A stretch of DNA of 40,862 bases from Candidatus Krumholzibacteriia bacterium (GTDB taxonomy: Bacteria > Krumholzibacteriota > Krumholzibacteriia > LZORAL124-64-63). The notes below the pieces were generated by a model. It saw only the letters and a list, made by a program, of their open reading frames with translations. It searched no databases and had not been told where the DNA came from. Both the position numbers and the translations under genes were made by a program. Below, one piece after another: positions 14,762 to 39,438 of this stretch; position 1 is the first letter of the stretch; every line of letters begins with the position of its first letter. Location of the stretch: positions 1 to 40,862 of the forward strand of contig JAGLCY010000096.1 of assembly GCA_023270185.1 (NCBI GenBank). The letters run 5' to 3'.

Positions 14762-14802
14762 ATGATTAATTCTATTTCGAATCGCGACAAGAGGTGATTG
14801 TG

Positions 14803-16017
14803 ATGCGGTCTTCTACGGTTGTCGTTCTAGTCCTTTTGGTGCTGGGTAATGTCGGCCCCGCGGCTTCCCGTGAATGGCATGTCCCGAATCAAGTCTCCAC
14901 AATTGCAGCCGCAATTGACTCTGCGGCGGTGGGAGATTCCGTAGTCATCGCATGTGGTACCTACATGGAGCATGACCTGGTAGTAAAAAGCGGGATCACC
15001 ATTCGCAGTGAAACGGGTTTGCCGGACTGCGTGACGATCGATGCCCAGCAATTGGGCTCGAATCTCCTCTGCGACGCCCTGGACGGGACGACGGTCATTT
15101 CGGGGATCAGGCTGCTGGCCGGGGAAGCAGGGAACTCGGGAGGAATTATTCAGTGTACAGGCGGGAGCAGTCCATACTTTGAAAGGTGCATTTTTGAAAG
15201 GGGTGTGGCTGACCTCAGTGGCGGTGGAGTGTATTGCTTAAACTCCACCCCTAATTTCGTCGATTGCCAATTCCTTGGCAATAGTGTCAACGCGGGGAAC
15301 GGAGGAGCATTGGCCGCGTTTGGTTCGTCTCCTGTACTGACGGGATGCCTTTTCAGGGGAAACGGGAGCCAGGGCGACGGCGGTGGAATGAATATTGAAG
15401 GTGGAGTGTTGAGTTTGAATAACTGCACCTTCGAAGAGAACAACGCTTCAAACTACGGGGGTGGACTACGTTCCATAGATTGTGGAGGAGAGATCACGGA
15501 CTGTCGGTTTCAAGGTAATATTGCTGGCTCGGGCGGCGGCGGAGCCTTGATCAATTGGGGCGATGTTGTTCTTCTCAATTCATCTTTCGAAGGGAATCAG
15601 GCGGCAGGCTTATGGGGCGGCGGTCTTCAAACTGGTGGCGGGGTAGCCCATACAGTCCAAGCGGACAACTGCATATTTACTGCGAATTCAACTCCCGAAG
15701 GAGGGGGGATCATGGGAGGCAGCAATTTGATCCTCCGATATTGCGGCATTAGTGAGAACGTGGCCAGTAATTATGGTGGAGGGATCAAGTTCAATGGAGG
15801 AATTCACCTGGAGGTTGAGTACTCCACCATATTGGGAAACATTGCTCCAGATGTTGCCGATGGTTTGATCCATTGGAACGGCACGGCAACTTTGAGGTGC
15901 TGTGAAATTGAGACTTCCGCTTGGCACGATTTGGCTGTCATCACCATCGATAATGAGGATTGTCAGGTTGCTGTGGAACGCTCTTCATGGGGATCGTTGA
16001 AGTCTCTGTTCCGATAG
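14803..16017 (+). CDS. Secreted right-handed beta-helix (polymorphic-membrane-protein-like repeat) protein ending in SWGSLKSLFR
   Basis: Signal peptide 'MRSSTVVVLVLLVLGNVGPAAS'. Repeats 'GGGVYCLNSTPNFVDCQFLGNSVNAGNGGALAAFGSSPVLTGCLFRGN' typical of beta-helix proteins. The track ORF begins at GTG 14794. Confidence 0.85.
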   Translation: MRSSTVVVLVLLVLGNVGPAASREWHVPNQVSTIAAAIDSAAVGDSVVIACGTYMEHDLVVKSGITIRSETGLPDCVTIDAQQLGSNLLCDALDGTTVISGIRLLAGEAGNSGGIIQCTGGSSPYFERCIFERGVADLSGGGVYCLNSTPNFVDCQFLGNSVNAGNGGALAAFGSSPVLTGCLFRGNGSQGDGGGMNIEGGVLSLNNCTFEENNASNYGGGLRSIDCGGEITDCRFQGNIAGSGGGGALINWGDVVLLNSSFEGNQAAGLWGGGLQTGGGVAHTVQADNCIFTANSTPEGGGIMGGSNLILRYCGISENVASNYGGGIKFNGGIHLEVEYSTILGNIAPDVADGLIHWNGTATLRCCEIETSAWHDLAVITIDNEDCQVAVERSSWGSLKSLFR

Positions 16018-19109: not shown

Positions 19110-19251
19110 ATTCCCCCGACAGTCGGGGGAACCAAGGTTCGGCAAGCGAATTAATTGCCGAGCCAATTTGAAGCACAGCGGATCTGCCGGAAAAAGCTGG
19201 CGATCCTGAGTGCTTGGTTTAGTCGGCACGCCGACATTTGGAGAAAAGACC
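19110..19251 (+). promoter_or_regulatory. Structured 5' leader RNA copy A upstream of an RRM gene
   Basis: Aligns without net gaps to 32220-32361 (constant offset 13110). Four hairpins: 19113-19129, 19136-19164, 19186-19201, 19222-19235. Confidence 0.75.
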
Positions 19252-19572
19252 TTGAAGAAGATCTACGTGGGCAACCTGCCCTTCAGCGCGACCGAAGACG
19301 ATGTCAAAGAACTGTTCGGTCAGCACGGCACGGTTCACTCCGTGGCCCTGATCATGGACCGTGAGACCGGCCGCCCCCGCGGTTTCGGTTTCATCGAAGT
19401 CGATGACGAAGCCCTTTCCGCCATGATCCAGAACCTGGACGGCAAGGAAATGGACGGCCGCGCGCTTCGCGTGAACGAGGCCCAGGACAAACCCCGTGGT
19501 GGCGGCGGCGGCGGCGGCGGCGGCCGTGGTGGCTACGGCGGCGGTGGCGGCGGTGGCGGCGACCGTTGGTAG
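19252..19572 (+). CDS. Glycine-rich RRM-domain RNA-binding protein A (TTG start)
   Basis: 'MKKIYVGNLPF' (RNP2) and 'RGFGFIEV' (RNP1), with tail GGGGGGGGGRGGYGGGGGGGGDRW. The track start at GTG 19210 is not conserved: paralog B has an in-frame TAA at 32329-32331. Confidence 0.93.
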   Translation: MKKIYVGNLPFSATEDDVKELFGQHGTVHSVALIMDRETGRPRGFGFIEVDDEALSAMIQNLDGKEMDGRALRVNEAQDKPRGGGGGGGGGRGGYGGGGGGGGDRW

Positions 19573-28827: not shown

Positions 28828-29814
28828 TTGCTCCCGGTGTTCAATTCCAAGTCAGGTTCAGCAACCAATCTAATATATCCGGACTTGAGCCGCAGCTACC
28901 CAAAAACCCATTCGAGGCATCGCCGCACCGTGAAGGCACAACCAATACCTATAGGGCCAAACTATTTTTTCCTTCATGTTCGCGACTTCATCGCGCCGCG
29001 CATGACAGGACGTAACGTCACCTACTGTCTGCTCTACGAATCAGCAGGGCTTCTGGGTCTGCAAAACGACGCCATCACATTCGACGCGGAAAAAACCGAT
29101 ACCCTGCGTTCCCACTTTCAGTATATCGCGGCCAACCACTTCGATGATCCCAGCTACCAGAGGATTGACGGACGGCCTGTCGTTTATCTGTATCTGACCC
29201 GTACGTTTGGGGGTACCTATGAACAGGCGCTCCAACTCGTGCGTCAGGACATGCTCGCTTTGGGTTTCGACATCTATCTGATCGGCGACGAGGTATACTG
29301 GGGCACGCCCAACTCTACGCGTATCGCCACCTTCGATGCTATCACGGCCTACAACATGCACGGCCCTGTTCATCTGTCAGGTTTTCCGGATGACAGTGGG
29401 TTCCTGACGGAGGTGTCGGCCAAATATTCACAGTACCAATCGACGGCGAGCGGCCTGAACGTCGCCTTCATTCCGAACATCATGCCGGGCTTCAATGATC
29501 GCGGCGTACGCCTGGAGGTGAACCATTACGTCATTCCGCCGCAGGTCAACAACTGGGCGAGCCACACGAGCACCCTGGAGGTGATCAGGGAACGGCTGGG
29601 TCCAACAGCGGTGGTGGTCCCTCCAACGGTGTTCAGCAATGAGATTCGTCTGGAGGGATATCCCAATCCCTTCAATTCCCGGGTTGTGATTCAATACGAG
29701 GTGGCCTGGCTGGGAGACGACCTGGCCGGTCGACCGGTTGCTTCGGGAGTTTATTTTGTGCGGTTGGAAACGGGGACCGAGGCGGCTACCCGACGTATTT
29801 CGCTGGTCAAATGA
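28828..29814 (+). pseudogene. Truncated GH99/WbsX-like glycoside-hydrolase remnant with an internally deleted FlgD-like C-terminal domain
   Basis: 'DTLRSHFQYIAANHFDDPSYQRIDGRPVVYLYLTRTFGGTYEQALQLVRQDMLALGFDIYLIGDEVYW' without signal peptide or N-terminal part. CTD jumps from 'YPNPFNSRVVIQYEVA' to 'WLGDDLAGRPVASGVYFVRLETG'. Confidence 0.6.
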
Positions 29815-32361: not shown

Positions 32362-32685
<324 letters not shown>

Positions 32686-34585: not shown

Positions 34586-34681
34586 TCGGCGGGATTGATT
34601 TTGCCATCTCAGATCATGTACAATTTATTGCTTCGGTTAACGGGCGAAAGAATTGGGCTGGTCAATAGTTACGGGAATATT

Positions 34682-36394
34682 ATGAAATCAATTGGATCTT
34701 CCTCGGTGAATACTCGCTTAGCCATGATGATATTGGCGATTGCCTTGACGGTATTTGTGGGTGGATGTGACGAGGAATGCAATCCGTGTATTCCAGATAC
34801 CGTGGAAACCCCGGACCGTATTCTGCCCGGTTATGCCAGGGTCGTCAGCCAGGACGATGTCGATGCCCTCGAGGGTGTGACGGAAATCCTCTACAATCTG
34901 GCTATCGGTCCCAGCGATGACATCGTCGATCTCAGTCCGCTGAACCGGTTGCGCACCGTTGGTGGCGAACTGTCGATCCGGGCCAATAAGACTTTGTCCT
35001 CCCTGGCCGGTCTGGACAGCCTCGCCCTGGTGGGTGGGTCCCTGTGGATTGAGGGGAACACCGTTCTTGGAAATTTGGCCGGGCTTGAGAACGCCGACGT
35101 AGCGTTGTCGGTATTTATCATTGGAAATTATGGGCTCACCACCATAGCAGGATTAAGGCATGAGCTGTCGGCGACGGCTGTAAACATCGGCCCGAATCGC
35201 ATCCTGCCTGACCTCAGCGGAATGCCCGACCTGCCCCTGGTCACTTCATTGACGATCAACGGGGACAGCGGGATGTCACTGACCGGTCTTGGCGCCACGC
35301 CGGCCCTGACGAATTTGGTGATCCGGGGAGTAAGCGATCTCAGCGTGCTCAGCGAGGTGTCCGACCGACCATTGTTGCAATCACTGACGATCGAGAAGTG
35401 TCCCGGCTTGGGTGATCTGTCCGCGCTTCCGTCATACTCCCAGCTGGAATCCTTGAAAATAAAGGAAAACGAAGGGTTGGAGACGGTCGGTACATTACCG
35501 GGCTTTGCCGCCCTCCGTAAATTGGAGATCACCAGGAACTCCAGCCTGGTGCAACTCGGGGAAATCGGGGCATTGCCCGGGCTGGAATTGCTCTACATCA
35601 CACGCAATGACAGCCTCGTTTCCCTGGCCGGGTTGCCCGATCTGTCCGGCGTGACGCGGTTGGATCTCAGTTATAATGTGAGTTTGGTAAACCTGACGGG
35701 GCTTGGCGCCCTGCCGAAGATCGAGGATTTGACACTGTATGGTTTGACGGGTCTTGAAAGCCTCGCGGGTATTACCGACCTGAGCGCACTCACGAGATTT
35801 ACACTGACAGGTATCGGAGTTACTTCCCTGGAGGGGCTGCCGGCCTTGCCGGAATTGACTTCATGGAGAATGAAATATTTTCCAAGCCTAAACAGTTTGG
35901 CGGGGATGCCGGAAATGCAGGACGTATCGTATTGGTCCATCGACCAGTGTGAGGTTCTGGCCGACCTGCGCGGAATGCCTGAATTACCGATGCTGAAAAT
36001 ATTGTCGATTATTGACATGCCAGGCATGACTTCGTCGGCGGGTATGAGCCAGGTCGGTCCGGAGTGCGAAGTCAGGTTGGAAAACATGCCGGTTCTTACG
36101 AGCCTTGAGGGGTTTGCTGGAGTCGAGGAACTTGGGAGACTGTCTGTTTTCAGCTGCAACTCTCTTGTCGATTTTAAGGGCCTCGAGTCCCTGCGGCGAA
36201 TTGCATCCGGGTTGATTATCGGCACAAACGAATCCCTGACTGATGTAAGCGCGTTGGCTGGAATTGTCGACACGGCGACCGCCTATGTAGGCTTTAGATG
36301 GAACATCAGCCTGGACCAGTGTGTGCTCATGGACATGGTTTCGAATTGGGAATGTGATTACCTCTCCGTGGGGAATAATGGCCCCTGTCAGTAG
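34682..36394 (+). CDS. Lipoprotein with leucine-rich / receptor-L-like repeats (track ORF from 34595)
   Basis: Lipobox 'TVFVGGCDEEC' and repeated 'L..L.GL..LP.L..L.I' units. Confidence 0.75.
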   Translation: MKSIGSSSVNTRLAMMILAIALTVFVGGCDEECNPCIPDTVETPDRILPGYARVVSQDDVDALEGVTEILYNLAIGPSDDIVDLSPLNRLRTVGGELSIRANKTLSSLAGLDSLALVGGSLWIEGNTVLGNLAGLENADVALSVFIIGNYGLTTIAGLRHELSATAVNIGPNRILPDLSGMPDLPLVTSLTINGDSGMSLTGLGATPALTNLVIRGVSDLSVLSEVSDRPLLQSLTIEKCPGLGDLSALPSYSQLESLKIKENEGLETVGTLPGFAALRKLEITRNSSLVQLGEIGALPGLELLYITRNDSLVSLAGLPDLSGVTRLDLSYNVSLVNLTGLGALPKIEDLTLYGLTGLESLAGITDLSALTRFTLTGIGVTSLEGLPALPELTSWRMKYFPSLNSLAGMPEMQDVSYWSIDQCEVLADLRGMPELPMLKILSIIDMPGMTSSAGMSQVGPECEVRLENMPVLTSLEGFAGVEELGRLSVFSCNSLVDFKGLESLRRIASGLIIGTNESLTDVSALAGIVDTATAYVGFRWNISLDQCVLMDMVSNWECDYLSVGNNGPCQ

Positions 36395-36426: not shown

Positions 36427-37014
36427 GTGATTCGCACCATGGTTTTCATCGTCTTTATCACCCTGGCGGGAACCTCTTTGGCAGATGTGGTCGACATCAG
36501 TTTTCCCGAACTGGCGAGTTACTATGAAACCGGGTGGGTAGATCCAGTCATTGCGCCCGCAGGGCGAACGACAACCTTCATGTTCCATCCGGATGTACAA
36601 AGCATGGATGGATTGCGCCTGGTAATCTCAGGAGACTGGAATGAGGGAGAGATCCATTGCGCCAGCCTGTGGGGTCCTCCTGACACCACCAGTTTCACAC
36701 CCGGCCTGAGCATATTTTTAACGGCACCCGAGGCCTTTGAGGGAACATTTCATGCCACGGTCCAACCTCCCGATGGGCCGTTTGACCAATCGACCGCGAC
36801 TTTTGAATACCTTTACCCGCCGGATGGTGCGGATATTAACCTCCTTTTGGGAGTGGAGGTTTCCGTGGAATTTTTCTGTGACCTGGTTCTTCCCGGAAAT
36901 TGCGGGGTGTTCGCCGACTCACATGGATCCGTGACTGAAGTCCGGTTGGAGGCGTTTGGGGCGGTGCCGGCGGAGGGGTTTTCGTGGGGAAGGGTGAAAT
37001 CGCTATTCCGATGA
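36427..37014 (+). CDS. Exported unknown protein ending in SWGRVKSLFR
   Basis: N-terminal 'MVFIVFITLAGTSLADVV' signal peptide. C-terminus 'GFSWGRVKSLFR' matches the tail of 14803-16017. Confidence 0.7.
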   Translation: MIRTMVFIVFITLAGTSLADVVDISFPELASYYETGWVDPVIAPAGRTTTFMFHPDVQSMDGLRLVISGDWNEGEIHCASLWGPPDTTSFTPGLSIFLTAPEAFEGTFHATVQPPDGPFDQSTATFEYLYPPDGADINLLLGVEVSVEFFCDLVLPGNCGVFADSHGSVTEVRLEAFGAVPAEGFSWGRVKSLFR

Positions 37015-38685: not shown

Positions 38686-39438
38686 ATGCGGATTCTGTTT
38701 TTGACGACCACCTGTTTGTTGTGGCTTCTCGCTGGGATCGGAACAGCCCAGGACTATCCCTGGTGCTCGAGAATGGACGATGTTTTTGCAGAGGTTGAAG
38801 GCGGCAACCTGATTCTTCACCACAAGAATGTCACCTACAACTGTTGCCCCGATTCCTTCACCTTCACCGTGACCATCTCCAACGACATTCTGTACGTCAC
38901 TGAAAAGGAAATTCTCACAAATCCTTGCACCTGCCTGTGCTGCTACAACCTTTCCTCGACTGTGGAGGGATTGTCCCCCGGTGAGTGGCAGGTTGTGTAC
39001 CGATGGTACGACGATGATCCGTGGGGCTGGCGTGATTGGCACCTGACAGTGACCGTCGGCGACCTGGGTGCGCCAGGGCCGGTCCAAATCGGACGATCAA
39101 AGGCATCCGGTTGTGTCGATCCCTCCGGAACACCCACGGACCCCGATCTTCCCGTCACCGGAATCGGGCTTCTGCAAAATGCTCCGAATCCGTTCAATCC
39201 CCAAACGACCATCGCATTCGAAATCCCGGAGAAGGCTGCTGTGAGCTTGCGCGTGTTCGATGTGTCGGGTCGATTGGTGCGAGTGTTGATCGACAATGAA
39301 ATTGTTGAGCGGGGTCGCCACGAGACGGTCTGGAACGGTCGGGATGACACAGGTCGGAATGTCGCCACGGGTGTCTACTTCTACCGTCTCGAATCGGGGC
39401 CGTGGTCCGAGATGAAGAGGATGGCATTGATCAAGTGA
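38686..39438 (+). CDS. Secreted protein with intact PNPFNP/FlgD-like (T9SS-type-A-like) C-terminal domain
   Basis: Signal peptide. 'LLQNAPNPFNPQTTIAFEIPEKAAVSLRVFDVSGRLVRVLIDNEIVERGRHETVWNGRDDTGRNVATGVYFYRLESGPWSEMKRMALIK'. Confidence 0.9.
   Translation: MRILFLTTTCLLWLLAGIGTAQDYPWCSRMDDVFAEVEGGNLILHHKNVTYNCCPDSFTFTVTISNDILYVTEKEILTNPCTCLCCYNLSSTVEGLSPGEWQVVYRWYDDDPWGWRDWHLTVTVGDLGAPGPVQIGRSKASGCVDPSGTPTDPDLPVTGIGLLQNAPNPFNPQTTIAFEIPEKAAVSLRVFDVSGRLVRVLIDNEIVERGRHETVWNGRDDTGRNVATGVYFYRLESGPWSEMKRMALIK

Follow-up and report, generated by a model that had tools for sequence, protein, structure and literature searches.

What does it mean that two dissimilar proteins encoded on one contig end in almost the same residues? 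The window, by which we mean the whole stretch of DNA analysed here (40,862 nucleotides from a Candidatus Krumholzibacteriia bacterium), carries on its forward strand a gene for an exported, right-handed beta-helix protein of 407 residues (14,794–16,017) whose tail reads SSWGSLKSLFR, and one for an exported protein of 195 residues (36,427–37,014), matched by no Pfam family, whose tail reads FSWGRVKSLFR. A sequence-only reading of this DNA had proposed that SWGxxKSLFR is the C-terminus of both, and the translated open reading frames confirm it. In copy 1, the extended tag region (15,967–16,014; VAVERSSWGSLKSLFR), delimited with a profile of 125 tags, has E at position −13 and S at −10, counted from the last residue, ahead of a core running from W (15,988) to R; with the stop codon (16,015–16,017), the core forms the 15,988–16,017 segment found by motif search. 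Copy 2 comprises the final 16 residues before the stop (36,964–37,011; VPAEGFSWGRVKSLFR), with the core W at 36,985. Signal sequences had been claimed for both proteins, and both N-termini are indeed signal-peptide-like, that of the beta-helix protein extending approximately over 14,794–14,868 (MIVMRSSTVVVLVLLVLGNVGPAAS) by heuristic. Equally correct is the remark that the shared residues are written in different synonymous codons (TCA/TCG, AAG/AAA, TCT/TCG and CTG/CTA); the stop codons differ, too (TAG in copy 1, TGA in copy 2).

The gene for copy 2 begins 33 bp behind the end of a leucine-rich-repeat protein gene (34,595–36,394, forward strand), whose product has a lipobox-like FVGGC near its start; the two genes possibly form one operon. 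Elsewhere in the window, a near-identical pair of glycine-rich RRM RNA-binding proteins (MKKIYVGNLPFSATEDDVKELFGQHGTVHSVALI...GGGGGG) is encoded at 19,210–19,572 and 32,362–32,685, again on the forward strand.

A terminal tag on exported proteins

Could the likeness be a coincidence, or the product of a recent duplication? We searched for W-G-x-x-K-x-x-[YF]-R-stop and used the reversed pattern as a control. The genome to which the window belongs (3.22 Mb) holds 21 exact terminal matches, against about 0.01 expected from base composition, and the control none. Where not cut by contig ends, the 21 carriers are mostly 200–400 residues long with signal-peptide-like N-termini, and their bodies are mostly unrelated to one another. 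The lineage is Candidatus Krumholzibacteriia, as the best PEPCK matches (83–95% identity) include two MAGs bearing this name. Phylum-wide, there are 663 terminal copies in 77 of 82 genomes, again without a control hit; the search of this genome and its relatives that had been suggested as a check thus comes out in favour of the tag. Some tagged genes are tandem paralogs, as copying would leave them. However, the excess over expectation, the empty controls, the differing codons and stops, the unrelated bodies and the presence of the tag outside the phylum leave chance or copied DNA virtually no room, and the own-genome, phylum-wide and outside-phylum counts refute it.

Internal occurrence of the motif had been named as an observation that would speak against a terminal signal. 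In about 98 places of the phylum-wide search the motif is followed by a sense codon (control, 1), yet all 22 of those inspected end one or two residues later (YRD, YRE or YRTP before the stop) and none is truly internal, so that this possibility is rejected. One genome without an exact terminal match (G062) has the motif ending one or two residues before the stop as well.

Among 125 non-redundant tag proteins, the core consists of W at −9, G at −8 (94%), I/V/L at −6 and K at −5, and the end of A/S at −4, L/M/I at −3, Y/F at −2 and R at −1 (91%); upstream, E occupies −13 (55%) and S/T −10 (80%), and V/P/T are enriched at −14 to −17. The search pattern dictated W and K but not E, S/T and V/P, which therefore lend independent support. 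Signal-peptide-like N-termini are found on 110 of 121 carriers as compared to 8 of 99 in a control made of the same carriers minus their first 60 residues—an enrichment whose absence would have counted against the tag. Of the 11 carriers without one, several are truncated at a contig end or have an uncertain start; another is a lipoprotein. Judged by this heuristic, the carriers appear to be Sec-exported.

The tag outside the phylum

The earlier inference of a signal particular to this lineage did not hold. In a sample of 311 genomes from outside the phylum, ten (from families f59, f74, f77, f107, f145 and f223) are tag-rich, with 11–58 copies each, about 20 more have one or two copies and most have none; the reversed control is empty throughout. 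The tag-rich loci again encode exported proteins, often in tandem. Many of the single copies belong to one small secreted family made of a signal peptide, an FN3-like domain and the ending TWGSIKAMFR. Across its 12 full-length members, from 12 genomes, the WGSIKAxFR end is invariant; elsewhere, besides the start, only Y77, D81 and Y94 are, and whole sequences are 30–41% identical to the first member. The fold is an ordinary FN3-like one, for which we found no informative relative in the PDB. Comparison of sequences thereby establishes a protein-level constraint on the tag that spans phyla. Gene contexts vary among the 12 loci, with an M23 peptidase gene recurring near the tagged gene in four genomes of three families (L206, L207, L264 and L267).

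Might the tag be a substrate for an enzyme rather than an address? Conservation upstream of the core (E at −13; V/P at −15 to −17), on many unrelated exported carriers as in many-to-one sorting, would suit a site of cleavage or transpeptidation near TE..SWG, a soluble counterpart of the PEP-CTERM or MYXO-CTERM signals. Such processing nevertheless seems unlikely to us: the tag lacks a transmembrane segment, no conserved processing enzyme lies beside the FN3-tag gene across the 12 loci, and there are no cleavage data. C-terminal peptides may also serve as protease or chaperone signals, and the tag is exposed and flexible in AF2 models, as a periplasmic chaperone or degradation signal without any role in localisation would be. 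An invariant degradation tag on a small FN3 protein across phyla would be hard to explain, though, and the tag is conserved on bodies of secreted and cell-surface type, where it is swapped for a localisation domain (see below). We consider this explanation very improbable.

Exchange of the tag for a type A C-terminal domain

If the tag is an address, where does it lead? What we found suggests a connection with type IX secretion (T9SS) and the cell surface. Homolog comparison identified an exported protein in the window (38,686–39,438, forward strand) that ends in a T9SS type A C-terminal domain (CTD; 39,178–39,435; TIGR04183, 27.7 bits, cut-off 23), located in the very position that the tag takes in homologs elsewhere. 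Within this body family, the CTD is found in three genomes (G000, G001 and G020) and the tag in 11 proteins of other genomes (about ten loci), including the variants KTLYH, WSALKIRFR and WSSVKVLYR; in most of the distant homologs, the N-terminal region contains a lipobox-like GC. One and the same body family would therefore be placed by a lipid anchor, a CTD or a tag. The homologs of the copy 1 beta-helix protein likewise bear the tag or its variants, some without the final R (WSQVKILY and WSAVKAMY), or a CTD; nine have neither, so the bodies can function without either tail. A third case of exchange connects loci L042 and L133 (E-values 1.5e-13 and 3.8e-15). Tag and CTD were never seen together on one of these homologous bodies. 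Taken at the level of homology, the tag replaces the Ig-like type A CTD. Together with the 663 copies, the 110 of 121 signal-peptide-like carriers and the unrelated bodies, these exchanges support the original proposal of a short terminal signal on exported proteins.

These families show other C-termini as well. Distant lipoprotein-like relatives of the 38,686–39,438 protein (L173, L177, L179, L187 and L188) share a short conserved C-terminus, HYPWG(L/Q) or RYPWGI, and beta-helix homologs from one genus (L281, L283 and L295) end in another motif, SGF[RQ]AVxAGL, which may be one more type of tail. The degenerate tags at L280, L282, L300 and L276, which are shortened or lack the final R (KILY, KAMY, WGKIKE and KALYQ), offer natural variants from which the importance of single residues might be judged. 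In the window itself, a protein with weak WbsX/GH99-like matches (28,828–29,814, forward strand) has a possible T9SS CTD end, which at 18.2 bits stays below the TIGR04183 cut-off.

Association with type IX secretion genes

Within the phylum, presence/absence profiling is uninformative: the translocon component SprA was detected in all 82 genomes (in 77 over the cut-off), and so was the type A CTD. Outside the phylum, 30 of the 31 genomes with the tag have SprA above the cut-off, versus 4 of the 46 without it (Fisher p ~6e-16, with genomes that are not phylogenetically independent). Save for one genome with a single tag and only a weak SprA match (G185), the tag in our sample is thus confined to genomes with this T9SS core gene. 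Since T9SS genomes share ancestry, this nesting is not phylogenetically independent.

Two of the 12 FN3-tag loci also have T9SS genes close by. At L203, 64 bp separate the start of the tagged gene from the end of a preceding PorD homolog (DUF4835, 4.5e-25; NF052317, 1.2e-25), and a PorV/PorQ-family gene lies nearby (NF033709, 7e-11), both NCBIfam scores being below the curated cut-offs. At L209, a DUF4835 gene (1.1e-11) is found two genes away on the same strand. No PorD homolog was detected near the other ten loci.

The main rival takes the co-occurrence with T9SS to reflect the shared ancestry of these phyla: the tag would be a peptide for surface anchoring or retention, independent of T9SS translocation, which binds or becomes attached to an outer-membrane or surface receptor once the protein has left by another route. 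It can draw on the lipoproteins among the distant relatives of one tagged body, as membrane attachment may be the shared need, and on the tag itself, whose predicted amphipathic helix with its aromatic residues, K and R would suit binding to a membrane surface or in the groove of a receptor and which lacks the Ig-like domain of a CTD. By itself, however, anchoring explains neither the distribution of SprA among tag-bearing and tag-less genomes nor the replacement of CTDs on homologous bodies. We regard it as possible, but doubtful.

Predicted structure and a proposed mechanism

AF2 models of the beta-helix protein (pLDDT 89, with the beta-helix reaching to about residue 386) and of the FN3-tag protein (pLDDT 85) agree in presenting the tag as a short helix behind a disordered linker, albeit at low confidence (local pLDDT about 50–58). 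Neither model contains a C-terminal Ig-like beta-sandwich of ~75 residues. The helix is predicted to be flexible and amphipathic, with W, I/V/L, L/M and Y/F on one face. Motif E of the CTD is a beta-strand, whereas the tag is predicted to be helical, so that a direct mimicry of motif E has no structural support. The basic residues fall at K −5 and R −1 in tags and at K −6 and R/K −1 in local CTDs.

How, then, could so short a tail act? In the reading that we prefer, it is a minimal C-terminal sorting tag for the surface of T9SS-bearing bacteria, probably a short alternative T9SS signal; our confidence in it, including the inferred T9SS step, is evenly split. After export of the carrier by Sec, a disordered linker would connect the folded body to the tag, which would form a short amphipathic helix with K and R opposite a face of hydrophobic and aromatic residues. 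It might be recognised by part of the T9SS machinery, a shuttle or a component of the translocon and most likely a barrel of the PorV family, with K and the terminal R taking the role of the motif E lysine and the terminal basic residue of CTDs. The protein would then be carried across the outer membrane or retained on the cell surface even though it has no full CTD. Translocation via T9SS, any cleavage and the receptor are all inferred. Weighing against the T9SS reading are the lack of any experiment, the non-independence of the SprA nesting, the presence of PorD in only two of 12 loci, K at −5 as opposed to −6, a tag modelled as a low-confidence helix where motif E is a strand, the nine beta-helix homologs with neither tail, and G185 with its weak SprA match. 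More tentatively still, and somewhat short of an even chance, the tag might represent a further class of T9SS signal: a helical C-terminal peptide of 10–16 residues without an Ig-like domain, read either by a dedicated shuttle or by the usual translocon. Its ancestral form in several phyla would be the terminus of the small FN3 protein, from which it would have spread to dozens of cargos in Krumholzibacteriota and a few other groups.

What defines T9SS signals is a domain of 70–200 residues, and which part of it is essential is still debated. A natural tag of ~10 residues that replaces CTDs would reveal the minimal T9SS address and make predictable, in uncultured phyla, hundreds of surface proteins that escape current models. 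Should it be no T9SS signal, it would still be an undescribed C-terminal sorting or anchoring tag common to several phyla, one with a clear consensus and with carriers that can be tested.

Comparison with known C-terminal signals

The tag looks undescribed. Neither TIGR04131 nor any other NCBIfam tail model or Pfam model covers it, and our literature search, whose scope excluded subscription papers and preprints, found no paper that describes it. That it is unlike LPXTG, PEP-CTERM, GlyGly-CTERM and MYXO-CTERM had been suggested from the start and stands, as the profile shows no run of hydrophobic residues over its final 20 positions. Like the tag, these signals are short and C-terminal, and within a genome dozens of exported proteins share one, in a many-to-one pattern; they differ by a signature motif of their own, a transmembrane helix, a basic cluster and a sortase-like partner, whereas the tag has no transmembrane helix and, near the 12 FN3-tag loci, no conserved partner. 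Nor is it a full T9SS CTD, again as proposed: neither tag protein of the window matches TIGR04183 or PF18962, and a hidden Markov model built from local CTDs matches 0 of 127 tag proteins but 33 of 33 CTD proteins. Type B (PF13585/TIGR04131) and type C CTDs provide precedents for alternative T9SS signals alongside type A (PMC10202324), yet these are regions of at least 100 residues with their own motifs, and the tag is far shorter. By analogy only, the single-copy FN3-tag protein recalls PorA of Porphyromonas gingivalis, which is likewise small, conserved, exported and found in T9SS bacteria, but has an ordinary CTD (PMC7712824).

The closest comparison is with the type A CTD (TIGR04183/PF18962). 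At about 10–17 residues versus 70–80, the tag lacks the Ig-like fold, has an invariant W-G and is a predicted helix rather than a strand. Both, however, sit at the extreme C-terminus of Sec-exported, mostly unrelated proteins, co-occur with SprA, occupy the equivalent place on homologous bodies and combine a conserved K, at −5 in tags but −6 in local CTDs, with a basic end (K/R in CTDs). Among type A CTDs, the final 22 residues are sufficient in HBP35, motif E lysines are required, and RgpB is no longer exported once two residues, though not one, are removed from its end; an extension of the C-terminus, by contrast, is tolerated (PMC11285876, PMC10202324). The single conserved lysine of the CTD makes contact with PorV (PMC10994853). 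The tag parallels these traits with its invariant K, its basic last residue, its tolerance of one or two additional residues and the existence of versions without the last residue. On these grounds we favour a minimal alternative T9SS address, at no more than the evenly split confidence given above.
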